Below are positions 12,806 to 38,407 of a stretch of 64,000 nt of DNA, piece after piece (the stretch's first letter is position 1; each line of letters begins with the position of its first letter). The notes beneath the pieces were generated by a model. It was not told the origin of the DNA, made no database searches, and worked only from the letters and a program-made list of their open reading frames with translations. The stretch comes from Deltaproteobacteria bacterium (GTDB lineage Bacteria > Desulfobacterota > Syntrophia > Syntrophales > JACQWR01): NCBI GenBank assembly GCA_016209105.1, contig JACQWR010000004.1, positions 62,001 through 126,000 of the forward strand, read 5' to 3'. A program made the translations under genes and the position numbers.

Positions 12806-13123
12806 TCATTGCAGCAGGTAGCCTGCCCGTTTCCAACCTTCTACGCCGCCGCCCAGGATCGTTATGTTTTCGTATCCCTTGTCGAGGAAGTCTGCTGCCA
12901 CACGGGCAGACGTGCGCTCCTCGGGTCAGGCGCAGTAGAAGATGATCTCCTGTGTTTTTGGCATACCGGGAAGCATGCTCTTGAACTTACTGAAGGGGAT
13001 GGAACCCTCGATCTTGAAATTCGCGTATTTCTCGTCGCTGTCATAGGCGCAGACGAAAAGAGCGTTGCCCGATTTCACTCTCTTGTACACTTCTTCCGCA
13101 CTGATACGCACCGGTGTCGTCAT
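12806..13123 (-). CDS. Rhodanese-domain selenoprotein (in-frame UGA = Sec66)
   Basis: A single-domain rhodanese-like sulfurtransferase of 105 residues. Conventional reading stops at UGA 12928-12926, giving a 65-residue stub; reading UGA as selenocysteine continues the frame for 39 more residues to TGA 12808-12806. The continuation completes the family's C-terminal half: YCA-U-PEERTSARVAADFLDKGY and ILGGGVEGWKRAGY. The Sec falls exactly at the catalytic Cys position of rhodaneses. The start ATG 13123 has a GGAGGG site. A stable hairpin directly follows the UGA and is a good SECIS candidate. Sec rhodaneses are known in anaerobic proteobacteria. The alternative, a nonsense mutation of a Cys codon, is less likely. 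Confidence 0.88.
12883..12928 (-). promoter_or_regulatory. Candidate bacterial SECIS element
   Basis: Immediately after the UGA (12928-12926), on the minus strand, CGAGGA pairs with UCCUCG (6 bp). Above an asymmetric internal loop, GUCUGC pairs with GCAGAC (6 bp), leaving a 10-base apical loop CCGUGUGGCA. Position and shape fit a SelB-binding SECIS inside the coding sequence. Confidence 0.7.
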
Positions 13124-13324: not shown

Positions 13325-14062
13325 TTATCGCCCCTTGATGATGCCGCGCACGCGCTCCAGTTCCTCCGGCGTATCCACCTCCACAGAGTCATAGGGGGTC
13401 TCCACGACCTTGATCCGGTAGCCGTGCTCGAGCGCCCGCAACTGTTCCAGCGCCTCCAGTCGCTCCAGCACTCCCTCGGAAAGTTGGGTAAAGACGGAAA
13501 GAAAAGACCTCCGATAGGCATATATTCCGTGGTGTTTGTAATAGGAAACGTTCAGTCTGCCGCCCCGCACGTAGGGGATGGTGGAGCGGGAAAAGTACAA
13601 GGCAAAATGTTCGTGATCAAAAACCGTCTTGACTGCGTTGGGGTGGGTGATCTCCTCCGCGCGCACGATTTTGTAAATAAGCGTTGCCATGGGCAGGGTG
13701 GGATCGGCAAGCAGCGGCCCTGATACTTCAGCAATCTGCGATGGTTCAAATAGCGGCTGGTCGCCTTGGACATTCACCACAATATCGTCATCTTTGACGC
13801 CCAGGATAGCAACAGCCTCGGCAATCCTGTCGGTACCCGACCGGTGCCTGGGTGACGTCATGACCGCCTGACCGCCAAAGTTTCTCACGGCGGCGGCGAT
13901 CCGCTCGTCATCCGTTGCTACGGCGGTACGGGAGACTGTCTTCGCCTGTTGCACGCGTTCATACACATGCTGGATCATGGGTTTGCCGCACAGATCCGCC
14001 AGGGGCTTCCCGGCAAAGCGCGTGGATTCATAACGCGAAGGAATGACGCAGACTACGTTCAT
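13325..14062 (-). CDS. kdsB: 3-deoxy-manno-octulosonate cytidylyltransferase
   Basis: Transfers CMP from CTP to Kdo (or 8-amino-Kdo) for lipopolysaccharide inner-core synthesis. 245 residues, the usual size. Diagnostic segments are IPSRYESTRFAGKPL (nucleotide loop), ATDDERI, RHRSGTDRIAEA, VNVQGDQPL and the C-terminal ETPYDSVEVDTPEEL. It is the last gene of a minus-strand set with kdnB, kdnA and hldD. In Shewanella, kdnB, kdnA and kdsB are neighbours and KdsB prefers Kdo8N; the context here suggests the same substrate. Between this gene and the rhodanese start, 13124-13324 has no supportable gene. Confidence 0.96.
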   Translation of the reverse strand: MNVVCVIPSRYESTRFAGKPLADLCGKPMIQHVYERVQQAKTVSRTAVATDDERIAAAVRNFGGQAVMTSPRHRSGTDRIAEAVAILGVKDDDIVVNVQGDQPLFEPSQIAEVSGPLLADPTLPMATLIYKIVRAEEITHPNAVKTVFDHEHFALYFSRSTIPYVRGGRLNVSYYKHHGIYAYRRSFLSVFTQLSEGVLERLEALEQLRALEHGYRIKVVETPYDSVEVDTPEELERVRGIIKGR

Positions 14063-14155
14063 AGGCAGAGAGAGAATGATTCTCTATGGTTTTCTTCAAA
14101 TAGTAGCTCTATTCTTCATTTACCGGATCATCTTGTTTTCTGAATCTTACATTTA

Positions 14156-14283
14156 GGCGGCTTCGCAAAAAGACTCAGAGGCAAGGCGTGCAAACCCTGA
14201 GGAATGAGGCGTACATTTAGCGTACGCTGCAACGACGAAGGGTGAAGCACAACACAGCATATGAGGCGTTTTCCAAAGCCGTC
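14156..14283. repeat. Dispersed ~125-bp palindromic repeat, copy 1
   Basis: Ends GGCGGCTTCGCAAAAAG and CGTTTTCCAAAGCCGTC are inverted. The interior shows GCAAGGCGTGCAAACCCTGAGGAATGAGGCGTAC around the centre CGTACATTTAGCGTACGC. Related copies lie at 15268, 16816, 33523 and 38289. This copy ends inside the stop codon of hldD and lies between hldD and kdsB. Confidence 0.75.
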
Positions 14284-15253
14284 ACAAATAGGGGTTGTTC
14301 GTCTGTAGATAACCGGTCACATAGTCACGGACAGCATCCTCCAAGCTGCGAAACGCCACGGGGCATCCGGCATTCCCGATCTTTTCCATCTTCGCCTCCG
14401 TGAAATACTGGTACTGGTCGCGGATAGCGGGCGGCATCTCGATATATTCAATACGGGGCTCGGATCCCATGGCGGTAAAAACGGCCTGAACAAGGTCGTT
14501 CCACGTCCGCGCGCGGCCCGCGCCGAGGTTGAAAATCCCGTTGACCCTGCGGTGCTTCAGCAGCCACCACAGTACATCCACGCAGTCTTTCACGTAAACG
14601 AAATCGCGCATCTGCCCGCCGTCACTGTATTCCGGCTTGTAGGATTTGAAAAGGCGTACGCTGCCCCGTTCCCGTATCTGGAAAAAGGCCTTGTAAACAA
14701 CGCTCGTCATGTCGCCCTTATGGTACTCATGGGGGCCGAAGACGTTGAAAAATTTGATCCCCGTTATTTTCCGTTCCGCCTGGTGCCGCAATACCCACAG
14801 GTCAAAAAACTGCTTCGAGAAGCCGTATTTATTGATGGGCTGCAAGCTCCGGGTTGCCTCGTCATCGTCGGAGAAGCCCGCCGTGCCGTCTCCATACGTG
14901 GCCGCCGAGCTGGCGTAGATGAAACGCACCTTGTGATTCATGGCCCACTCGGCCAGCCGGCGGGTATACCGGTAGTTATTCTCCATCAGGTACCCGGCAT
15001 CCTGTTCCGTCGTGGAAGAGCAGGCCCCCATATGGATCAGCGCCCGGATGTTGAAGGGCAGCTTTTCCGCCTGGAGCATCTTCAGGAAATCGTCCTTGTG
15101 GAGATAATCGGCATATCGCCGCTTTACGAGGTTCTTCCACTTGTCCGACGTGTCCAGCTCATCAACGACAATGATATCGTTGATTCCCTCATTGTTCAAT
15201 TTCCAGACAAAGGCGCTGCCGATGAAGCCTGCGCCGCCGGTTACCACGATCAT
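14282..15253 (-). CDS. hldD: ADP-glyceromanno-heptose 6-epimerase
   Basis: Converts ADP-D-glycero-D-manno-heptose to the L-glycero form for the LPS inner core. A short-chain dehydrogenase-like enzyme of 323 residues. It has the N-terminal NAD(P)-binding GGAGFIGSAFV, the HMGACSSTTEQD segment, the catalytic Tyr-Lys in NKYGFSKQ, and FNVFGPHEYHKGDMTSV, all typical of HldD. The start ATG 15253 is preceded by AAGGAGAAAGC. It lies between kdsB and kdnA on the same strand, so four core-sugar genes are grouped. Confidence 0.96.
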   Translation of the reverse strand: MIVVTGGAGFIGSAFVWKLNNEGINDIIVVDELDTSDKWKNLVKRRYADYLHKDDFLKMLQAEKLPFNIRALIHMGACSSTTEQDAGYLMENNYRYTRRLAEWAMNHKVRFIYASSAATYGDGTAGFSDDDEATRSLQPINKYGFSKQFFDLWVLRHQAERKITGIKFFNVFGPHEYHKGDMTSVVYKAFFQIRERGSVRLFKSYKPEYSDGGQMRDFVYVKDCVDVLWWLLKHRRVNGIFNLGAGRARTWNDLVQAVFTAMGSEPRIEYIEMPPAIRDQYQYFTEAKMEKIGNAGCPVAFRSLEDAVRDYVTGYLQTNNPYL

Positions 15254-15267
15254 GCTTTCTCCTTACC

Positions 15268-15390
15268 AGGCTGTTGAAAAACGCCCGTCTGCTGCGTTAC
15301 CCTCGTCCTTCGTCGCTACGACGTACGGACAAGCACGCCTCACTCCTCAGGACTTCGGAGGCCTTGCATCCGAGCATTTTTGAACAGCCT
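15268..15390. repeat. Dispersed palindromic repeat, copy 2
   Basis: Clear terminal inverted repeat: AGGCTGTTGAAAAA at the left and TTTTTGAACAGCCT at the right. The interior includes CTGCGTTACCCTCGTCCTTCGTCGCTACGACGTACGG, shared with the other copies. It lies between kdnA and hldD and could alter their cotranscription. Confidence 0.8.
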
Positions 15391-15417
15391 GAGCAAATGC
15401 AGTTTTTCAATTGCCCG

Positions 15418-16617
15418 CTAAAGTTCCCGTGCTGCCTGTTCAATCCCTTTTTTGATGGTGGCAATCTTCTCTTCGGGCATCTTTACCGCGATCCCCATGA
15501 CGAGTGTCCGCCCCAGGATATCCTCCGCTTGAGGAATGTTTTCCCGCCGGTAATCGGCCTTCCCCTTGTAGCCAGGATCGTTAAATGGATATTTTTTCGA
15601 GCTGGCGGTAGAACGCGCCAGGAAATGTTCCCAGTTGGGCACATAATGCCACATATTATCCTTGTAGCGGACCGTATCTATCCCCTGCCCCGCGAGGGCC
15701 TTCTGAAATTTCTTTGCCCGGTCCTCCGACGGCAGATTGAATGCCAGAAAGGTGGCCGAATCTCCGGCGGGGTCGGGAATATCCCGGAACCCGATCCCCT
15801 TGACGGCCTTCAGGGCCTCCCTGATGCTCGCCTTGTTCTTTCTCTGCGCGGCGATAATGCCGTCCAACTTGCGCAGTTGGGCCAGGCCCAGGGCGCCCTG
15901 TATCTCGTTCATCCTATAATTGAAGCCGAGAATCGTTCTCCCGTCCATGGCGCGGCCCGCCGCCTTGTGATCGTGCCCGTGGTCGTGATACCATTCGGCG
16001 CGGTCGGCCAAATCCTTGTTGTCCGTCAGGACCATCCCCCCCTCGCCCGTGGTAACGGTCTTCACGTAATCAAAGCTGAAGATGCCCATATCGCCGAAGG
16101 TGCCCAGTTTTTTTCCCTTAAAGCCCGCGCCGCATCCCTGGGCATTGTCTTCCAGCACCAGAAGTTTGTGCTGTCGGGCGACGGCAACAATCTTATCTAT
16201 CCGTGCCGGCGCCCCGCACATATGGACGGGGATGACCGCCTTCGTGTAGGGGGTGATTTTCCTCGGGATATCGTCGGGGTCCAGGCAGAGGGATGTGTCA
16301 ATGTCCGCCATGACGGGAACGGCGCCCACTTCCATGACCGCCTCGTACGTAGCCAGAAACGTGAAGGCGGGAACGATTACCTCATCACCCGGGCCGATAT
16401 CCATGGCCATAAGCGCTACCTTGAGAGCGGCGGATCCGGATGTTACCCCCAGGGCATATCTTGCCCCGCAGTACTTCGCAAACGCCTCTTCAAATTCCCG
16501 ACACTTGAAAACGCCCTTTCGTTCCACGTCGAAATTGTATCGTATGAGGATGCCCGTCTCCAGAACTTCGAGCACTTCTTTTATTTCTTCTTTCCCGATT
16601 ACTTCCGCACCAGCCAT
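15418..16617 (-). CDS. kdnA: 8-amino-3,8-dideoxy-manno-octulosonate transaminase, KdnA-like
   Basis: A PLP aminotransferase of the DegT/DnrJ/EryC1/StrS family, 399 residues. The Schiff-base lysine is in FSFDYVKTVTTGEGG. Segments recalled from Shewanella KdnA match well: RYNFDVER near the N terminus, HMCGAPARIDKI, DHGHDHKAAGR, LRKLDGIIAAQRKNK and FRDIPDPAGDSATFLAF. KdnA aminates the 8-oxo-Kdo made by KdnB, using glutamate, to give Kdo8N. The start ATG 16617 has a GGGAGGAC site; the open frame runs to 16728 across a hairpin repeat and was not extended. Neighbours kdnB and kdsB support the assignment. Confidence 0.87.
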   Translation of the reverse strand: MAGAEVIGKEEIKEVLEVLETGILIRYNFDVERKGVFKCREFEEAFAKYCGARYALGVTSGSAALKVALMAMDIGPGDEVIVPAFTFLATYEAVMEVGAVPVMADIDTSLCLDPDDIPRKITPYTKAVIPVHMCGAPARIDKIVAVARQHKLLVLEDNAQGCGAGFKGKKLGTFGDMGIFSFDYVKTVTTGEGGMVLTDNKDLADRAEWYHDHGHDHKAAGRAMDGRTILGFNYRMNEIQGALGLAQLRKLDGIIAAQRKNKASIREALKAVKGIGFRDIPDPAGDSATFLAFNLPSEDRAKKFQKALAGQGIDTVRYKDNMWHYVPNWEHFLARSTASSKKYPFNDPGYKGKADYRRENIPQAEDILGRTLVMGIAVKMPEEKIATIKKGIEQAAREL

Positions 16618-16682
16618 TACGTCCTCCCTGCCTTGTTCGTTTCTTACAGGCACCAACCTCTCGCCTGCCGGACTTGTAAAAA

Positions 16683-16797
16683 GTGAAGCTCCCCGCTCAG
16701 GAGAGCGGGGCTTCCCGGCAAGGAACATCTCTGTTCATCATTGCGCCCCTTACCCCGCCTGGAAGGCGGGGCTTGCGGAGGACGCCCCCGGTCACGA
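16683..16797. repeat. Two REP-like hairpins in tandem
   Basis: First unit, 16683-16724: GTGAAGCTCCCCGCT / AGCGGGGCTTCCCGGCAAGGAAC. Second unit, about 16751-16797: TACCCCGCC / GGCGGGGCTTGCGGAGGACGCCCCCGGTCA. They represent two subtypes that differ in the tail after the stem. They fill the kdnB-kdnA gap together with the palindromic repeat at 16816. Confidence 0.6.
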
Positions 16798-16815
16798 AAC
16801 TGTTAATTTTTTCAG

Positions 16816-16944
16816 GACGGCTTCGTAAAAAGCTCCGCAGGCAAGGCGCGCGAAGCCTGAGGAGTGAGGCGTACTTTTGGACGTACGCTGCAACGACGAA
16901 GGATGAAGCACAACTTGAGCATCCGGGCGTTTTACGAAGTCGTC
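16816..16944. repeat. Dispersed palindromic repeat, copy 3
   Basis: Inverted ends GACGGCTTCGTAAAAAGC and CGTTTTACGAAGTCGTC. The interior CCTGAGGAGTGAGGCGTAC and CGTACGCTGCAACGACGAAGG is nearly identical to copy 1. The right end overlaps the stop codon of kdnB. Confidence 0.8.
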
Positions 16945-18097
16945 ACGCCTGCCCGTAAATATCTATGGCATCTTTTAGCGTTACTTTCCGGGGATTGTTC
17001 TCCAGCGGTCTTGCCACGGTCATGGCAACTTTCGCCAGTTCGGAAAAATCTTTCTCGGAAATATCAAAATCACTCAGATCGGAATCAATGCCGCAATCTT
17101 CGATCAGGGCCTCCACCGCTTCCAGCGCCAAAAAAGCCGCTTCCCGAAGCGGAAGTCCGTCCGTCTCTTCCCCCATAACTTCCGCAATAACCGTAAATTT
17201 TTCCAACGCCCCCGGCAGATTGAACGCCATAACAGGAGGCAGCATGATGGTGTTGGCCAACCCATGGGGAATGCCGTATTTGCCGCCCAGAGGATAGGAG
17301 AGAGAATGGACGGCAGTAACCCCGGCGTTGGCCAGCCCCAGCCCGGCATAAAGACTTCCCAAGAGCATTTTCTCCCTGGCTTCCAGGTTCCCCTCCTCAT
17401 GAACGCAGGTCCGGAGGTTTTCCGCAATCAGCCCGATTGCTTCCAGCGAAATCAATTCGCTCATCGGAGAGGCGTTGATCGAGGTATAGGATTCGATGGC
17501 GTGGCAGAGGGCGTCTATGCCCGTGGTGGCCGTGGGGCCGGGGGGCAGACTTACGGTAAGCTGCGGATCGAGGAGAGCCAGGTGTGGATAGAGGTAGGGG
17601 CTGTTCATGCCCTCCTTCTTTTTCAAGTTTTTCCTGATGAAGACGGCGGTAAAGGTCACCTCGCTCCCCGTACCGGCGGTTGTAGGAACCATGATCGTGG
17701 GCAACCCGGGACCGGGCACCTTGTTCAAACCGAGATAGGCCTCGGCCTTGCCCTTGTTCGTCACGAGTACGGAAACGGCCTTAGCCACATCCATGGCGCT
17801 GCCGCCGCCGATGCCGATGACCGAGTCGCATTTCGCCTTGAGAGCATATTTGGCGCCCTCGTCGGCCAGCTCCAGGGGCGGCTCTGCTTCCACACGGTCG
17901 AACAGAACAGCGTCCATTCCCGTCCCCTTCAGAAGGCGGGCCACTCTCTTGCCGAAACCCGAAGCCGCCAGATTTTTATCCAGAACAACCAGGGGCCGGG
18001 TGACCTTCATTTCCCGCATGTGTTCATCCAGGGCGTCAAAGGATCCGCTGCCGAAAACCACTTTCCTTGCCCCGGTAAAGGTAAAACGTTTTATCAT
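16943..18097 (-). CDS. kdnB: Iron-containing alcohol dehydrogenase, Kdo 8-oxidase KdnB-like
   Basis: 384 residues of the group III iron-dependent alcohol dehydrogenase family. It shows the NAD-binding GIGGGSAMDVAKAVSV, the metal-site segments TTGIDALCHAIESYTS and HSLSYPLGGKYGIPHGLANTI, and VPTTAGTGSEVT. The family alone would only say alcohol dehydrogenase. The specific call rests on kdnA directly downstream and kdsB in the same set, matching the Shewanella kdnB-kdnA-kdsB arrangement, in which KdnB oxidises the C8 hydroxyl of Kdo. The start ATG has an AAGGAGAAG site. Its stop codon lies in repeat copy 3. Confidence 0.8.
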   Translation of the reverse strand: MIKRFTFTGARKVVFGSGSFDALDEHMREMKVTRPLVVLDKNLAASGFGKRVARLLKGTGMDAVLFDRVEAEPPLELADEGAKYALKAKCDSVIGIGGGSAMDVAKAVSVLVTNKGKAEAYLGLNKVPGPGLPTIMVPTTAGTGSEVTFTAVFIRKNLKKKEGMNSPYLYPHLALLDPQLTVSLPPGPTATTGIDALCHAIESYTSINASPMSELISLEAIGLIAENLRTCVHEEGNLEAREKMLLGSLYAGLGLANAGVTAVHSLSYPLGGKYGIPHGLANTIMLPPVMAFNLPGALEKFTVIAEVMGEETDGLPLREAAFLALEAVEALIEDCGIDSDLSDFDISEKDFSELAKVAMTVARPLENNPRKVTLKDAIDIYGQA

Positions 18098-18273: not shown

Positions 18274-19020
18274 TCAAGTTTTTTTGCGCTTTCCATTTTC
18301 CATATACCAGTCCAATTGCCGGCATATGCCGCGGATAATTTTTACCTCCCTGGCCAGGAGGCTCGTCCGGGAAAGGAACCGGCGGATGTGCAGCATCCAG
18401 TAATCGGGATTCTGCGGGTTTAAAAATCCAATTTTCGTCAGGAGACATTTCACCTGTTCATACATCGCCTCCGTTTCCCCCGAGGTGGCCAGACGGGGCT
18501 CATGAGGTCTGTCGGATGGTAATGTCCGCGCCACGAAAATTTCATAACAGATGATCATCACGGCATGGGAAAGATTCAGGGATTTGAATTCGGCCGTGGG
18601 AATCGTTACCAGCATATGGCAGAGGCGGATATCTTCATTTGAAAGACCCGTATCCTCGGGTCCGAACACAAGCGCAATCTCGTTTTGTTGCGACATCTCC
18701 ACGATTCGCCCGGCCATCTCCCGCGGCGATACCGCAGGACCACGCGCCGATCCGAGGCGCGAGGTTGTTCCCACGACGTAGTTAAATCCTGCCACCGCCT
18801 CCTCCAAACTGTTACAATACCGGATACCGTCTATGATCTCGGCGGCAAAATGGGTGGATACCTGCTTCATCTCCGCCGGATCCAGTTCCCGGCCTCCTAC
18901 AACGAGGATTTTGTCTATACCCATATTCCTGGCGCATCGCGCCGCAAATCCCACATTGCCCGCATATTTTGGCTGATTGAGAACGATGGTTATGCTTTCC
19001 GTCTTCGCTTTCGCCTGCAT
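18274..19020 (-). CDS. trmJ: tRNA (cytidine/uridine-2'-O-)-methyltransferase TrmJ-like
   Basis: A SPOUT-fold methyltransferase that modifies position 32 of tRNA anticodon loops. 248 residues. Motif 1 is LNQPKYAGNVGFAARCARNMG, motif 2 FGPEDTGLSNEDI and motif 3 IPTAEFKSLNLSHAV, the knotted SAM site of the TrmH/SpoU superfamily. A C-terminal helical extension (residues 180-248) is typical of TrmJ. It is divergent from rsmG. Confidence 0.87.
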   Translation of the reverse strand: MQAKAKTESITIVLNQPKYAGNVGFAARCARNMGIDKILVVGGRELDPAEMKQVSTHFAAEIIDGIRYCNSLEEAVAGFNYVVGTTSRLGSARGPAVSPREMAGRIVEMSQQNEIALVFGPEDTGLSNEDIRLCHMLVTIPTAEFKSLNLSHAVMIICYEIFVARTLPSDRPHEPRLATSGETEAMYEQVKCLLTKIGFLNPQNPDYWMLHIRRFLSRTSLLAREVKIIRGICRQLDWYMENGKRKKT

Positions 19021-19138
19021 CTGTCGCTCATTCCTAAAAAAGCTTTATTATTATGAGGCATTAACTGTAGCACAAAATCCAACTAACCTCCCGAATTATT
19101 CATTGCCGCCGGCAGCTTTTTTCTGCTATCCTCTCTCC

Positions 19139-19804
19139 ATGGAAAACGATTTCTGTCGCCTGATCCGGGAGTCGGCCCTTGAACTGGGCATCAGTCTTGA
19201 TGACCGGCAGGTGTTCCAATTTGCAAAGTATCACGGGGAACTGCTCCTGTGGAACAAAAAAATCAATCTCATTTCAGAGCGGTCTTCCCTCGACATACCG
19301 ATAAAACACTTCATTGATTCTCTGACGGCGCTGCCTTTTCTCAACAATAAGGACAGCAAGGTTCTCGACATCGGCAGTGGGGGCGGCTTCCCCGCCCTTC
19401 CCCTAAAAATCGCCGCGCCCGGGCTGGAGATGCTCCTCGTCGAATCCTCGCGCAAGAAAGCTTCTTTCCTTAAGCACTGCGTCCGCTCTCTGGAACTCTG
19501 CCGTGTCACCGTCACGACCACGCGGGTGGAAAAACTGGCAAAATCGGGGAACTACTCAAACAGTTTTGATGCAGTCATCTCCCGCGCAACGTTCAAGCTG
19601 CCGGATTTCGTCTCTGCCGGCGCCCCTTTTCTCCGCCCCGGGGGAATCCTGATTGCCATGAAGGGCGCCAACTTTTCCGACGAATTGGAAAAAACCGCCA
19701 CCATCCTGCAACCCCTCGGATTGCAACTCCTTTCCTGTCATGAAATCAGGCTGCCCGTAATCGGCGATGAGCGGAATATCGTTCTCTACAGAAAGGTTGT
19801 CTAA
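19139..19804 (+). CDS. rsmG: 16S rRNA (guanine527-N7)-methyltransferase
   Basis: Methylates G527 of 16S rRNA. 221 residues from ATG 19139; the frame opens earlier at 18977, but the added residues are unlike the family. The SAM motif is VLDIGSGGGFPALPLKI, followed by LVESSRKKASFL and VISRATFKLPDFV. There is no clear ribosome-binding site. The order rsmG-parA-parB is widely conserved near bacterial origins. The 103-bp gap to parA is AT-rich and carries no gene. Confidence 0.94.
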   Translation: MENDFCRLIRESALELGISLDDRQVFQFAKYHGELLLWNKKINLISERSSLDIPIKHFIDSLTALPFLNNKDSKVLDIGSGGGFPALPLKIAAPGLEMLLVESSRKKASFLKHCVRSLELCRVTVTTTRVEKLAKSGNYSNSFDAVISRATFKLPDFVSAGAPFLRPGGILIAMKGANFSDELEKTATILQPLGLQLLSCHEIRLPVIGDERNIVLYRKVV

Positions 19805-19907
19805 CCCCGTTTTGCGGGTAAAATATCCCTTCTCAAAGATTGCGTTTTGTGCTAACGATACCCTTTATTCCACAACAATTAACATATTGGATTTGCTCTA
19901 TTAAATA

Positions 19908-20678
19908 ATGAATAAAGTCATATGCATAGCAAATCAAAAGGGCGGCGTCGGGAAAACGACGACAGCGATAAATCTGGCTGCCTCGCTGGCAACGGCGGAG
20001 AAAAAAACCCTTTTGATCGACTGCGATTCCCAGGGCAACGCCAGTAGCGGTGTGGGTATCGACAGGGAAGCGGTGCGTACGAAAAACCTCTATCATAGTT
20101 TGATCGGCAGGGTGCCGCTCAAAGACGTAGTAGTGAGCACCCCCTTCCCCTATCTGGATGTGGTGCCGACCAACCAAGATCTTATCGGGATAGAGGTTGA
20201 GTTCATCAATCTTGAGGAGCGAGAGAAAAAACTCCGGAACTTGCTGAAGAACCTTGACATACCGTATGACTTTATTATTATCGATTGTCCGCCTTCACTG
20301 GGATTCTTAACCATAAATGCCCTGGTCGCCGCCGATGTGGTGATTGTGCCGCTGCAGTGCGAATACTTTGCCATGGAAGGCCTGGGACATCTGCTCAACA
20401 CGTTAAAGCTGGTCAAAGCAAGACTCAATCCCGCCCTGGTGCTCGGAGGGATACTGCTCACCATGTTTGATGTAAGAAATTTGCTTGCGCATAAAGTCAG
20501 TGAAGACGTAAGGAAACATTTTGGCAACCGAGTTTTCAATACCGTTATTCCTCGGAACGTCAGGCTTTCGGAAAGCCCCAGTCATGGGCTTCCCATTATT
20601 ACGTACGATATAAAATCCAAGGGAGCCCTGGCATACATGGAACTCGCGCGGGAAATCCTTGCGGATGGGAGGGTGTAG
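19908..20678 (+). CDS. parA: Chromosome partitioning ATPase ParA/Soj
   Basis: A deviant Walker-A ATPase that moves or senses the ParB-parS complex during chromosome segregation. 256 residues. Walker A is KGGVGKTTT (residues 11-19) with the signature lysine; Walker A' is LLIDCDSQGNAS; Walker B is FIIIDCPPSLG. The short N terminus fits the chromosomal (Soj) type without a DNA-binding extension. parB starts at the base after its stop codon. Confidence 0.96.
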   Translation: MNKVICIANQKGGVGKTTTAINLAASLATAEKKTLLIDCDSQGNASSGVGIDREAVRTKNLYHSLIGRVPLKDVVVSTPFPYLDVVPTNQDLIGIEVEFINLEEREKKLRNLLKNLDIPYDFIIIDCPPSLGFLTINALVAADVVIVPLQCEYFAMEGLGHLLNTLKLVKARLNPALVLGGILLTMFDVRNLLAHKVSEDVRKHFGNRVFNTVIPRNVRLSESPSHGLPIITYDIKSKGALAYMELAREILADGRV

Positions 20679-21536
20679 ATGCCGCCTAAAAACTCGCTCG
20701 GCAAGGGGCTGGGAGCCATGTTCCCCGATCTCCTCGGTGGAGACATCCTCGGCAAAGGGTCCCTGCTCACCTGCGGCATAGAGGAGCTTTGTCCCAACAA
20801 GTTCCAGCCGCGCAAGGATTTCGATGATCGGGCACAGAAGCGCCTGGTGGCATCCATCAAGAAAAACGGCATGCTTCAGCCCATCATTGCGAGAAAGGCC
20901 GGGGCCGGATACGAGATCATTGCGGGCGAACGCCGATGGCGCGCCGCCCAGGAGGCCGGGCTTCGGGATGTTCCCGTTATTATCAGGAACGCGGAAGATG
21001 TGGAGGTCGCCGAACTGTCGCTCGTAGAAAACATTCAGCGGGAAGCGTTGAATCCCCTTGAAGAGGCGCACGCTTACCAGCTGCTTGGTGAGACGTTCGG
21101 CCTTTCCCAAGACGATATATCGGCACGGGTGGGGAAGGATCGTTCCACGATAGCCAATACAATCAGGTTACTGAAACTCCCGAAGGAAGCCCGGACGGCC
21201 ATAATCAAAAAAACCATCACTCCCGGCCACGCGAGAGCGCTGCTGGCGCTAACTTCGGGCGCAGAACAGCTTAAGGTGCTCGATCTTATCATCAAAAAGA
21301 ACCTGAGCGTACGGGAAGCGGAACGCCTGGTGCAGCAGCTCAACACACTGCCACGGGAAAAACCTGTCCCAAAGAAAAACCACTACCTACACGATCTGGA
21401 AGAAACCCTGTCCAAGAGGTTCCGAACCAAGGTGCAAATAAAACAGGGGAGTAAGCGGGGCTCTATCGAACTTGGCTTTACCACGACCGAAGACTTAAAC
21501 CGTATAGTACATATTCTTTTGGACGAAAAGATGTAA
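20679..21536 (+). CDS. parB: Chromosome partitioning protein ParB/Spo0J
   Basis: A CTP-dependent DNA clamp that loads at parS sites. 285 residues. The N terminus has the ParA-interaction segment LGKGLGAMFPDLL. The CTP-binding domain carries GERRWRAAQEAG and ENIQREALNPLEEA. The helix-turn-helix is LSQDDISARVGKDRSTIANTIRLL, and a C-terminal dimerisation domain follows. The gene abuts parA with no gap. No convincing parS site was found in the window. Confidence 0.96.
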   Translation: MPPKNSLGKGLGAMFPDLLGGDILGKGSLLTCGIEELCPNKFQPRKDFDDRAQKRLVASIKKNGMLQPIIARKAGAGYEIIAGERRWRAAQEAGLRDVPVIIRNAEDVEVAELSLVENIQREALNPLEEAHAYQLLGETFGLSQDDISARVGKDRSTIANTIRLLKLPKEARTAIIKKTITPGHARALLALTSGAEQLKVLDLIIKKNLSVREAERLVQQLNTLPREKPVPKKNHYLHDLEETLSKRFRTKVQIKQGSKRGSIELGFTTTEDLNRIVHILLDEKM

Positions 21537-21563
21537 GGTCATAAAACCGTTCCTGGCTTTGAT

Positions 21564-21595
21564 TTATCCACAGCTGTTGATAAAACTGTTTATAA
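21564..21595. promoter_or_regulatory. Cluster of three DnaA boxes before dnaA
   Basis: TTATCCACA (21564-21572, plus) is a perfect DnaA box. TTATCAACA reads on the minus strand at 21575-21583, and TTATAAACA on the minus strand at 21587-21595. All three lie in the 60-70 bp between parB and dnaA. They probably mediate DnaA autoregulation and may form part of oriC. Confidence 0.75.
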
Positions 21596-21607
21596 GGTGT
21601 GGCGACA

Positions 21608-22951
21608 TTGAATACCCTTTGGGAAAAAAGCATTAAAATTATTAAGCAAAATATCAGCAAACAGAATTTCGACACCTGGATCAGGCCGATTAATGTTGTC
21701 GCCAGGGAGGATAACCGCGTTCAATTATCCGTGCCCAACAAGTTCTTCCGGGAATGGATCATGGAAAACTACCGCAGCAGCATCGGTGACGCCATTTCTT
21801 CCGTGGCGGGAACCGAAATTGAACTCGATTTTACCATCAATCATAATGGTGTAACGGCACCCTCTTCCGTTGGCACTGACGATGAAATACCGCGCAAAAT
21901 GGAAAAATCATCGAAGAAACGTCTCCATCCGTCCTTAAATCCCAATTATACCTTCGAGCGGTTTGTGGTGGGATCTTGTAATCAGTTCGCCCATGCCGCT
22001 TCCGTAGCGGTAGCAGAAAAACCAGCCAAGAACTACAATCCGCTGTTTATCTACGGCGGCGTGGGCCTCGGGAAGACACACCTCCTGAACGCTATAGGAT
22101 TTAGAACTCTGTCGCTCTACCCTGACATTTACGTTCTCTATGTTTCGGCTGAGGAATTTATGAACGAGCTGATCAACTCCATCCGCTATGATAAAATGCA
22201 AAAATTCAGGGAAAAATTCAGGAATATCGAGTGCCTTCTTATTGACGACATCCAGTTTATCGCAGGCAAGGAGAGAACGCAGGAAGAGTTCTTCCATACC
22301 TTCAATACCCTCCATGATTCCGGCAAACAGATTGTCGTTACCAGCGATAAATTTCCCAAGGATATTCCGAATCTTGAGGGAAGACTGCGGTCGCGATTTG
22401 AATGGGGGCTGATTGCCGATATCGCGCCTCCGGAGACGGAAACCAAAATGGCCATCATCGAAAAGAAAGCGCAGGAAAACGGCATTGCCATACCCAATAA
22501 CGCCGCCTACTATATCTGTTCCCATGCAGAATCGAACATCAGGGAACTGGAAGGTCTCCTGGTAAGAATCGGCGCCTATTCTTCCCTGACGGGTAGAGAA
22601 ATAGATATGGATCTCGTTAAGGAGGTCCTCAAAAAACTTCTTAAGCATCATGAAAAGAAGGAAGTGACTGTTGATGAAATTATAAAAGCGGTGGCCAGTA
22701 AATTAAACGTGAAAATAGCGGATATCAAATCACAGAACAAGACAAAAAGCTTTGTGTTATCAAGGCAGATTGCTATGTATCTCTCAAGAAAAATGACCAA
22801 CGCCTCTTTTCCCGACATTGGTGAAAAGATTGGCGGACGCGACCACTCAACGGTCATCTATTCCAATAACAAGATTAGAAAATTAATAGAAATAGACAAG
22901 AAATTAAATATGCTTATTCAAGAAATAGAAGACGTCCTAAATAAAGATTAG
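21608..22951 (+). CDS. dnaA: Chromosomal replication initiator protein
   Basis: Binds DnaA boxes and opens the origin. About 447 residues from TTG 21608, which has AAGGTG eight bases upstream; GTG 21599 in the same frame would add three residues but lies almost on top of that site. Domain I opens LWEKSIKIIKQNISKQNFDTW. The AAA+ domain has Walker A GGVGLGKTHLLNAIG, Walker B LLIDDIQFI and sensor regions. Domain IV ends with the DnaA signature around GGRDHSTVIYSNNKI. The order is parB-dnaA-dnaN. Confidence 0.96.
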   Translation: MNTLWEKSIKIIKQNISKQNFDTWIRPINVVAREDNRVQLSVPNKFFREWIMENYRSSIGDAISSVAGTEIELDFTINHNGVTAPSSVGTDDEIPRKMEKSSKKRLHPSLNPNYTFERFVVGSCNQFAHAASVAVAEKPAKNYNPLFIYGGVGLGKTHLLNAIGFRTLSLYPDIYVLYVSAEEFMNELINSIRYDKMQKFREKFRNIECLLIDDIQFIAGKERTQEEFFHTFNTLHDSGKQIVVTSDKFPKDIPNLEGRLRSRFEWGLIADIAPPETETKMAIIEKKAQENGIAIPNNAAYYICSHAESNIRELEGLLVRIGAYSSLTGREIDMDLVKEVLKKLLKHHEKKEVTVDEIIKAVASKLNVKIADIKSQNKTKSFVLSRQIAMYLSRKMTNASFPDIGEKIGGRDHSTVIYSNNKIRKLIEIDKKLNMLIQEIEDVLNKD

Positions 22952-23131
22952 TGTTTGTATCGTTTAACGCGCCATTAAATTTACATGCACCGTCTATAAA
23001 CAGTTATTTCACGTTTAAGTATCGATACTCCTTACAGTAAGGAAATACATTAACAGATTAAACATGCGCTATTATTACTACTAATTTTATTTATATAAAA
23101 CAAAAGTAAGAAAGAAAGGAAGGGCACGGCA
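22952..23131. other. AT-rich dnaA-dnaN intergenic region, possible oriC/promoter part
   Basis: 180 bp, strongly AT-rich compared with the neighbourhood, without a gene. It holds two adjacent perfect palindromes: AGTATCGATACT (23018-23029) and CCTTAC-A-GTAAGG (23030-23042). An AT-rich tract runs just before dnaN. It must contain the dnaN promoter and could serve as the duplex-unwinding element, but no strict DnaA box was found inside. Confidence 0.5.
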
Positions 23132-24250
23132 ATGGAATTTAATATCCAACGAAATGTCTTCTTGAGTGGCATTCAAAAAACATTGGGCATTGTGGAGAGA
23201 AAAACAACCATGCCGATCCTGAATAATATCCTCATTAGGACTGATAAGGGTAAAATAAAAATTGTAGCCACTGACAGAGAGATTTCCCTCTTGGCACGCT
23301 ATGATGCCCAGGTGATCAAAGAGGGAGATATTACTCTTTCTGCGAGGAAGATCTATGAAATGGTTCGTGAAATGGAAGGGGAGACTGTTCACTTCCTAAA
23401 AAACGATAACAATATGGTTACCATGACTTGCCAGAAGGTTTTGTATAAGATTCCTGGTATAGCGGCGGAGGACTACCCCCGTGTTGCTGATGATGAAGAG
23501 GCAAAAGTGTTTAATATACCAGGGGCGATTCTGAGAGAGTTGATTCACAAAACCTCATTTGCGGTTTCTACAGATGAGATGCGCAGAAATTTAACGGGTG
23601 TTTTTTTGGAGACGCCGAGAGATGGTGACAACCGGCTGGTGCAGATGGTGGCGACGGACGGGCATCGTCTGGCCATAGCCCGTTCATTTGCCGGTGAGAA
23701 GGAATATCTGGAATTGGAGAAGGGGGTAATCATACCGCGCAAGGGACTGGGGGAAATACGGAAGATTATAGAGGACGAGACCGGTATGATTACAATGGGG
23801 GTGCATAAGGGGGCATGCATTGTGAGAGCCGGCAATGTGATGCTGAAGGTAAGTCTGATTGATGCGGAGTTTCCCGAGTTCCGCAAGATCATTCCGGCGG
23901 AGCGGGATATATTTGCCGTGATTGACAGGAATGCGATGCTACATGCCCTCCGGAGAATGAATGTCATCGCCAGCGAGGGGTACAGTGGTGTCATCGTATC
24001 CCTTTCCGAAGGGAAGATGGTGCTCAGCTCTACAAACCCGGACGTGGGAGAGGCGAACGAGGAAATTGATATTTCCTACACCGAACGGGATATCAGTATG
24101 GGATATAACGTTAATTATCTCTTAAGCGCCATCGAGGTCATTGACGAAGAAAAGATTGTTTTTGAGTTTAGCGGAGGCATGAAGCCGGGCGTGGTAAAAC
24201 CAGCGAATAATGACAGCTACATGTGCATTATCATGCCGCTGAAGATATAA
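23132..24250 (+). CDS. dnaN: DNA polymerase III beta sliding clamp
   Basis: The ring-shaped processivity clamp. 372 residues, the standard length for three repeated clamp domains. Recognisable parts are KTLGIVERKTTMPILNNILI, FAVSTDEMRRNLTGVF, the VATDGHRLA motif, and the C-terminal YMCIIMPLKI. The start ATG follows AAGAAAGGAAGG. gyrB begins 34 bp downstream; recF, often found here, is absent. Confidence 0.97.
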   Translation: MEFNIQRNVFLSGIQKTLGIVERKTTMPILNNILIRTDKGKIKIVATDREISLLARYDAQVIKEGDITLSARKIYEMVREMEGETVHFLKNDNNMVTMTCQKVLYKIPGIAAEDYPRVADDEEAKVFNIPGAILRELIHKTSFAVSTDEMRRNLTGVFLETPRDGDNRLVQMVATDGHRLAIARSFAGEKEYLELEKGVIIPRKGLGEIRKIIEDETGMITMGVHKGACIVRAGNVMLKVSLIDAEFPEFRKIIPAERDIFAVIDRNAMLHALRRMNVIASEGYSGVIVSLSEGKMVLSSTNPDVGEANEEIDISYTERDISMGYNVNYLLSAIEVIDEEKIVFEFSGGMKPGVVKPANNDSYMCIIMPLKI

Positions 24251-33522: not shown

Positions 33523-33648
33523 GACGGCTACGGAAAAAGGCCGGATGCGGCGTTGCGCTTCCCCCTTAGTCGCTGCGACGTACCAAAAAGTACGCCTACG
33601 CTCCTAAGGGGTCGCGCGCCTTGCCTGCGACCTTTTTGCGAAGCCGTT
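33523..33648. repeat. Dispersed palindromic repeat, copy 4
   Basis: Inverted ends GACGGCTACGGAAAAAGG and CCTTTTTGCGAAGCCGTT. The centre GCTGCGACGTACCAAAAAGTACGCCTACGC is a strong internal palindrome shared with copy 5. It separates rtcB from the restriction-modification genes. Confidence 0.8.
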
Positions 33649-38288: not shown

Positions 38289-38407
38289 AACTGTTGAAAA
38301 ACACCCATCTGCTGCGTTCCCTCAGCGTTCGTCGCTGCGACGTACCGAAAAGTACGTCTCACTCCTCACGCTTTCGGAGCCTTGCATCTGGATATTTTTG
38401 AACAGTT
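38289..38407. repeat. Dispersed palindromic repeat, copy 5
   Basis: Ends AACTGTTGAAAAA and TTTTTGAACAGTT are inverted. The centre CTGCGACGTACCGAAAAGTACGTCTCACTCCTCA matches copies 2 and 4. It starts 3 bp after the thioredoxin stop codon and may serve as its transcript end. Confidence 0.8.

Follow-up and report, generated by a model that had tools for sequence, protein, structure and literature searches.

Does a gene cluster from an anaerobic bacterial order build an amino sugar known from Shewanella, and does it do so with the same enzymes? The cluster in question lies in a stretch of 64,000 nucleotides (hereafter the window) from a Deltaproteobacteria bacterium of the order Syntrophales (assembly GCA_016209105.1, contig JACQWR010000004.1, positions 62,001 to 126,000), in which trmJ, a gene for an iron-type alcohol dehydrogenase (Fe-ADH) here called ADH-A, kdnA, hldD and kdsB follow one another in this order of transcription on the minus strand and form one cluster (Table 1). 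3-Deoxy-manno-octulosonate (Kdo) serves as the anchoring sugar of the outer-membrane polysaccharide in Gram-negative bacteria and ranks with the most conserved sugars of their lipopolysaccharide (LPS). The synthesis of its 8-amino form, 8-amino-3,8-dideoxy-D-manno-octulosonate (Kdo8N), was reportedly assigned by Gattis et al. in 2013 to the kdnB-kdnA-kdsB cluster of Shewanella oneidensis. Shewanella is the genus for which Kdo8N counts as a hallmark, its C8 resonating near 44 ppm in NMR (PMC6357163), and KdnB, the 3-deoxy-alpha-D-manno-octulosonate 8-oxidase of this genus, is an Fe-ADH of the FeADH3/cd08184 type with a solved structure, 5k8c (PMC5125639). No report of Kdo8N outside Shewanella was found in the literature looked at, a limited search that is not a proof of novelty.

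The original prediction read the locus as the Shewanella set, kdnB, kdnA and kdsB, with hldD added, found outside that genus, and expected that Kdo8N would probably be present and change the charge and antibiotic resistance of the envelope. The four genes are indeed all present in a single interval of the minus strand, and we regard the cluster as very probably a Kdo8N operon, shared across the order, whose first step would be non-orthologous to that of Shewanella. Like the S. oneidensis cluster, it encodes together a member of the KdnA family, a KdsB with three shared residues and a presumed first enzyme of the Fe-ADH fold. Unlike it, the first enzyme comes from another Fe-ADH lineage, the gene series is dehydrogenase-kdnA-hldD-kdsB after trmJ, with hldD included, KdnA falls into a separate clade and the host belongs to an anaerobic order.

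The aminotransferase

The product of the window's kdnA is a DegT/DnrJ/EryC1/StrS aminotransferase (PF01041, 306.9 bits) with an invariant pyridoxal phosphate (PLP) lysine, K186, in the segment SFDxxKTxTxGEGG. Among solved structures it scores 372.5 bits with S. oneidensis KdnA (5k8b), the next relative being a perosamine synthase at 194.9 bits, and within the 45 % identity to the Shewanella protein this lysine and long invariant stretches are kept. The segments DHGHDH, RYNFD and IPDPAGDSA, which the original prediction had singled out as KdnA-like, are all three present. Curated NCBIfam models for PseC (209.5 bits against a cut-off of 423.5), ArnB (194.3 against 631) and similar enzymes give about half their cut-offs or less. 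Since 5k8b wins by a wide margin and the PseC and ArnB models stay under their cut-offs, the grouping with such types that the prediction had itself set against its KdnA assignment was not found; the same scores rule out that the protein is PseC, ArnB or perosamine synthase. Its grouping with Shewanella KdnA is well supported, and transamination of 8-oxo-Kdo is predicted on this basis.

A KdnA tree, rooted at its midpoint only because four other DegT proteins tried as outgroup gave branches about 10 long (probably wrongly chosen open reading frames, ORFs), splits at 100/100 support into proteins from genomes that mostly carry ADH-A and proteins from KdnB genomes, including Shewanella. Because KdnA is order-wide and lies in a separate clade, a recent transfer from Shewanella is ruled out. 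In the genus g35 (L104, L105; L229, L230; genomes G087, G044) the native operon lacks kdnA, and a KdnA from another ADH-A subclade, 49 % identical, is encoded elsewhere; here kdnA itself seems to have been exchanged.

The dehydrogenase

The name KdnB, given to the dehydrogenase in the original prediction, does not hold. ADH-A scores 246.5 bits against nicotinamide adenine dinucleotide (NAD)-dependent methanol dehydrogenase and 104.1 bits against KdnB (5k8c), its best solved relatives being methanol, 1,3-propanediol and lactaldehyde enzymes. The short Fe-ADHs that adjoin kdnA elsewhere in the phylum are true KdnBs, L096 among them reaching 412 bits with 5k8c. Long, well supported branches separate ADH-A from KdnB in the Fe-ADH tree. 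Bit scores, the comparison with L096 and the separate clades rule out that the window's dehydrogenase is a KdnB orthologue; judged by them, ADH-A is an Fe-ADH lineage distinct from KdnB. The idea of an orthologous Shewanella-type kdnB-kdnA-kdsB set outside the genus can draw on similar gene content and on the agreement of KdnA and KdsB. However, it is contradicted by the tree and search results for the dehydrogenase, by the fully supported separation of the KdnA clades and by an operon that most of the order carries and that was not gained recently, and is hardly credible.

The PTTAGTGSE motif and all four metal-ligand positions of the NAD-linked group III dehydrogenases are intact in ADH-A, which is therefore probably NAD-linked itself. 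With the group III alcohol dehydrogenases (FucO, DhaT, NAD-methanol dehydrogenase) it shares the fold, the metal ligands, GGGS and TTAGTGSE-type motifs and the top Protein Data Bank scores, but it differs from them in having Tyr and not His at position 268, Glu at position 72 and a linkage to kdnA. From KdnB it is set apart by an identity of only about 30 %, a separate clade and the TTAGTGSE motif, where KdnB has mostly T(L/I/V)SGTGAE, whereas its proposed reaction, its Tyr268 and its alternation as the partner of KdnA are KdnB-like. Tyr268 lies beside the metal site and is found in 52 of 52 ADH-A and 26 of 26 KdnB sequences, as against His in 10 of 12 other Fe-ADHs; Glu72, Thr150 and Gly163 are also common to ADH-A and KdnB. 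No NCBIfam equivalog reaches its cut-off on ADH-A. In the window's genome, which is 92 % complete, ADH-A is the sole Fe-ADH detected, and no true KdnB was found. Its orthologues are 60–80 % identical, as compared with at most 46 % for the other Fe-ADHs of the order, the thresholds that part ADH-A and KdnB orthologues from other Fe-ADHs having been chosen after the scores were seen.

Distribution of the operon

KdnA occurs in 83 of 100 sampled Syntrophales genomes (64 of the 72 of good quality), and ADH-A-like matches at E <= 1e-70 in 87 of the 100, mostly orthologues within the above range of identity and nearly all adjoining kdnA. The order trmJ-ADH-A-kdnA-hldD-kdsB recurs across many families of Syntrophales, often closely spaced, and loci named Syntrophales or Syntrophaceae also carry the cluster. 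Chance falls far short of explaining an arrangement whose gene order recurs in the genomes of so many families. Across the whole phylum, KdnA was found in 71 of 297 sampled genomes. A scan with a KdnA-specific DNA pattern, which shows presence and not frequency, gave among the matches listed Bacteroidota, Shewanella, Sulfurivirga, one Synergistaceae and one Rhodobacteraceae genome. On this sequence evidence, kdn genes are present in several phyla and the operon is near-universal in Syntrophales. The original placement of the set outside Shewanella thus keeps its core, in that a Kdo8N-type pathway is the best reading, but was drawn too narrowly for an operon of such breadth.

By names taken from sequence reading, kdnA-kdnB is followed by kdsA on a Bacteroidia contig (L113), and kdnA-kdnB-kdsB by waaA on a Sulfurivirga contig (L129). 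A true kdnA-kdnB pair was also seen in a metagenome-assembled genome (MAG) named Desulfosudis oleivorans (L121). Members of Desulfosudis are strict anaerobes, and a KdnB there sits oddly with the name of oxidase.

Exchange of the first enzyme

The two dehydrogenases alternate as partners of KdnA. Among the 71 KdnA genomes of the phylum sample, ADH-A is adjacent to kdnA in 44 and encoded elsewhere in 3, while KdnB without ADH-A is adjacent in 12 and elsewhere in 8; one further genome has an adjacent KdnB plus a distant ADH-A relative (44 % identity). KdnB at least 53 % identical to the L096 query is found in 21 genomes, all 21 of which also have KdnA; this line was drawn after seeing the data, and six f60 genomes with a distant KdnB relative (42–45 %) are not counted.

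Two lineages whose KdnA belongs to the ADH-A clade have no ADH-A and encode a true KdnB elsewhere. The Syntrophales family f19 has kept the kdnA-kdsB operon and lacks ADH-A, and three of its genomes carry a solitary KdnB that is 62–63 % identical to that of Shewanella (a direct measurement for two of them, with which the third shares 90 % identity); no true KdnB was found in the other genomes among the 100 of the order. The second case is f35, Desulfobulbaceae-like by tree position, in which six genomes have no ADH-A and encode KdnB elsewhere, and those of its KdnAs that were placed on the tree fall inside the ADH-A clade. In total the KdnA tree requires three changes of partner. As the aminotransferase stays the same while its partner enzyme is exchanged, this pattern argues that ADH-A and KdnB make the same intermediate, and the two swaps are the best evidence that ADH-A would do the job of KdnB.

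These swaps also bear on the suggestion that the joint product of ADH-A and KdnA is some other amino sugar, for example one derived from another free or phosphorylated octulosonate or a heptose derivative, and that KdsB still uses plain Kdo. Such a route would fit a KdnA that in the ADH-A clade is merely 45–50 % identical to Shewanella KdnA, a dehydrogenase that is not KdnB and the position of hldD inside the operon. However, a true KdnB replaces ADH-A beside the same KdnA clade in two lineages, which implies the same intermediate, the KdsB residues agree with those of Shewanella, and the genome has a single KdsB over the cut-off. We therefore consider a different sugar unlikely and Kdo8N the product to be expected.

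KdsB and HldD

Both remaining labels of the original prediction are borne out by curated NCBIfam equivalogs: KdsB scores 244.8 bits on TIGR00466 (cut-off 155.2), as the only protein of the window's genome over this cut-off, and HldD 416.8 bits on TIGR02197 (cut-off 274.6). The addition of hldD to the cluster is real but not peculiar to this organism, as hldD sits between kdnA and kdsB in most members of the order examined.

Three residues of KdsB, Q102, D225 and E228, go together with the presence of KdnA. They are found in 60 of 67 KdsBs from KdnA genomes versus 4 of 42 from KdnA-free genomes, a count that leaves out two KdnA-free f59 genomes, both incomplete and members of a family in which KdnA occurs. 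The KdsBs of Shewanella and Sulfurivirga have the identical three residues, whereas the solved Kdo-type KdsB chains that were aligned and shown have Glu at 102 and Gly at 228. Among 20 KdsBs fetched after the pattern had been recognised, the fit was 16 of 16 in KdnA genomes and 1 of 4 in KdnA-free genomes.

Evidence to the contrary

A number of observations weigh against a Kdo8N operon of this kind. Neither waaA nor kdsA was found in the 864 kb (32 %) of the 2.7 Mb genome that were searched, with two distant queries and a motif. Three of the 71 KdnA genomes have neither dehydrogenase; two of these carry kdnA on short contigs, which perhaps explains them, and the other has a weak KdnB relative. 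The Q-D-E signature of KdsB is phylogenetically clustered, and a test on independent pairs comprised 3 pairs and had no power, for which reasons the residue association is taken as supporting evidence only. KdsBs with the signature (L280, L283, L314, L353) also occur in genomes in which no KdnA was detected, some of them complete; an aminotransferase that was missed or a further modification of Kdo may lie behind this. Where KdnB attaches among the ADH-A entries is not fixed by the Fe-ADH tree. Finally, two f20 genomes (L226, L227; G020, G036) keep trmJ-ADH-A without a close KdnA, the nearest aminotransferase of G036 being a 40 % identical DegT encoded elsewhere; loss of the pathway or the use of another aminotransferase is possible in this family.

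The f20 genomes, along with the methanol, propanediol and lactaldehyde enzymes as best solved relatives, could also mean that ADH-A is an unrelated enzyme of fermentation or alcohol metabolism which adjoins kdnA by chance, 8-oxo-Kdo being made by some other oxidoreductase. This is very unlikely in view of the adjacency across tens of families and the alternation with KdnB, the failure to detect a further Fe-ADH in the window's genome and the distance that separates the ADH-A orthologues from the other Fe-ADHs of the order.

The proposed pathway

In the Kdo8N pathway proposed here, ADH-A would oxidise free Kdo at C8, turning the hydroxyl into an aldehyde (8-oxo-Kdo), probably with NAD(P)+, and KdnA would transaminate this product to Kdo8N using PLP and an amino donor, which in Shewanella is glutamate. 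The single KdsB would then turn Kdo8N into cytidine monophosphate (CMP)-Kdo8N for the LPS inner core, and HldD may supply the neighbouring heptose. The identity, order and conservation of the genes, the exclusion of KdnB orthology, the alternation and the two swaps are observed, whereas the substrates and the cofactor of these steps, like the occurrence of Kdo8N in LPS, are inferred. KdnB is reported to need oxygen rather than NAD(P), a point that is not used as evidence here.

Layout and surroundings of the locus

Table 1. Features of the cluster and repeat copies in the window
Feature	Position	Strand	Reading
kdsB	13325..14062	-	3-deoxy-manno-octulosonate cytidylyltransferase, predicted to activate Kdo8N; TIGR00466; Q102, D225, E228 as in Shewanella KdsB
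hldD	14282..15253	-	ADP-glyceromanno-heptose 6-epimerase (inner-core heptose); TIGR02197
kdnA	15418..16617 (ORF open to 16728)	-	PLP aminotransferase, predicted 8-oxo-Kdo to Kdo8N; 5k8b match
ADH-A	16943..18097	-	Fe-ADH, predicted oxidation of Kdo at C8 in KdnB's place
trmJ-family RNA methyltransferase	18274..19020	-	conserved upstream neighbour; TIGR00050 187.8 bits, cut-off 167.15
dispersed palindromic repeat copy	16801..16935	no strand	between ADH-A and kdnA
further repeat copies	14141-14275, 15286-15400, about 33534-33647, about 38295-38400		

The start of kdnA is almost certainly the ATG at 16617 and not 16728, as the homologues start only where the longest ORF has reached about residue 38; the 37 extra N-terminal codons of the latter overlie repeat-like sequence. 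Upstream the cluster runs on into trmJ, which likewise neighbours the operon in relatives and is probably not part of the sugar pathway. In the relatives L040 and L041 several operon genes abut or overlap, and the gaps between these more tightly packed genes are filled in the window by copies of a palindromic repeat of about 120–135 bp. The repeats between genes remarked on in the original prediction are thus real, but the family has 13–22 matches in the 864 kb examined; as an element dispersed through the genome it does not belong to the pathway, and for the same reason the palindromes were rejected as specific regulators of the operon.

On its upstream side the operon adjoins a probable replication-origin block (18274-24250) reading as rsmG, parA, parB, dnaA and dnaN, a neighbourhood also seen in L226 and partly in L050. 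On the other side, at 12806-13122 of the minus strand, lies a short frame resembling a rhodanese; it contains a single in-frame TGA near 12927 (FYCA*PEERTSARVAADF), which is a candidate selenocysteine codon. A hairpin follows whose fold does not stand out (z -1.36), and the scanned third of the genome showed no tRNA-Sec.

Significance

Beyond the Syntrophales, it is likely that Kdo8N is an old inner-core sugar of several phyla and not a speciality of Shewanella. On this view two non-orthologous dehydrogenases of the iron type, KdnB and the probably NAD-linked ADH-A, serve its first step and have repeatedly taken each other's place next to one and the same aminotransferase; amino-Kdo may then be the base of the LPS in whole anaerobic orders. 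If so, Syntrophales would as a rule have the positively charged 8-amino form in place of Kdo, an exchange that would be common in other lineages too, and ADH-A together with KdsB residues 102, 225 and 228 would provide ready markers for predicting Kdo8N. The exchange of dehydrogenases would also make the electron acceptor of the first step open to experiment, given that KdnB is named an oxidase and yet is found in the Desulfosudis MAG, while other anaerobes would use ADH-A.

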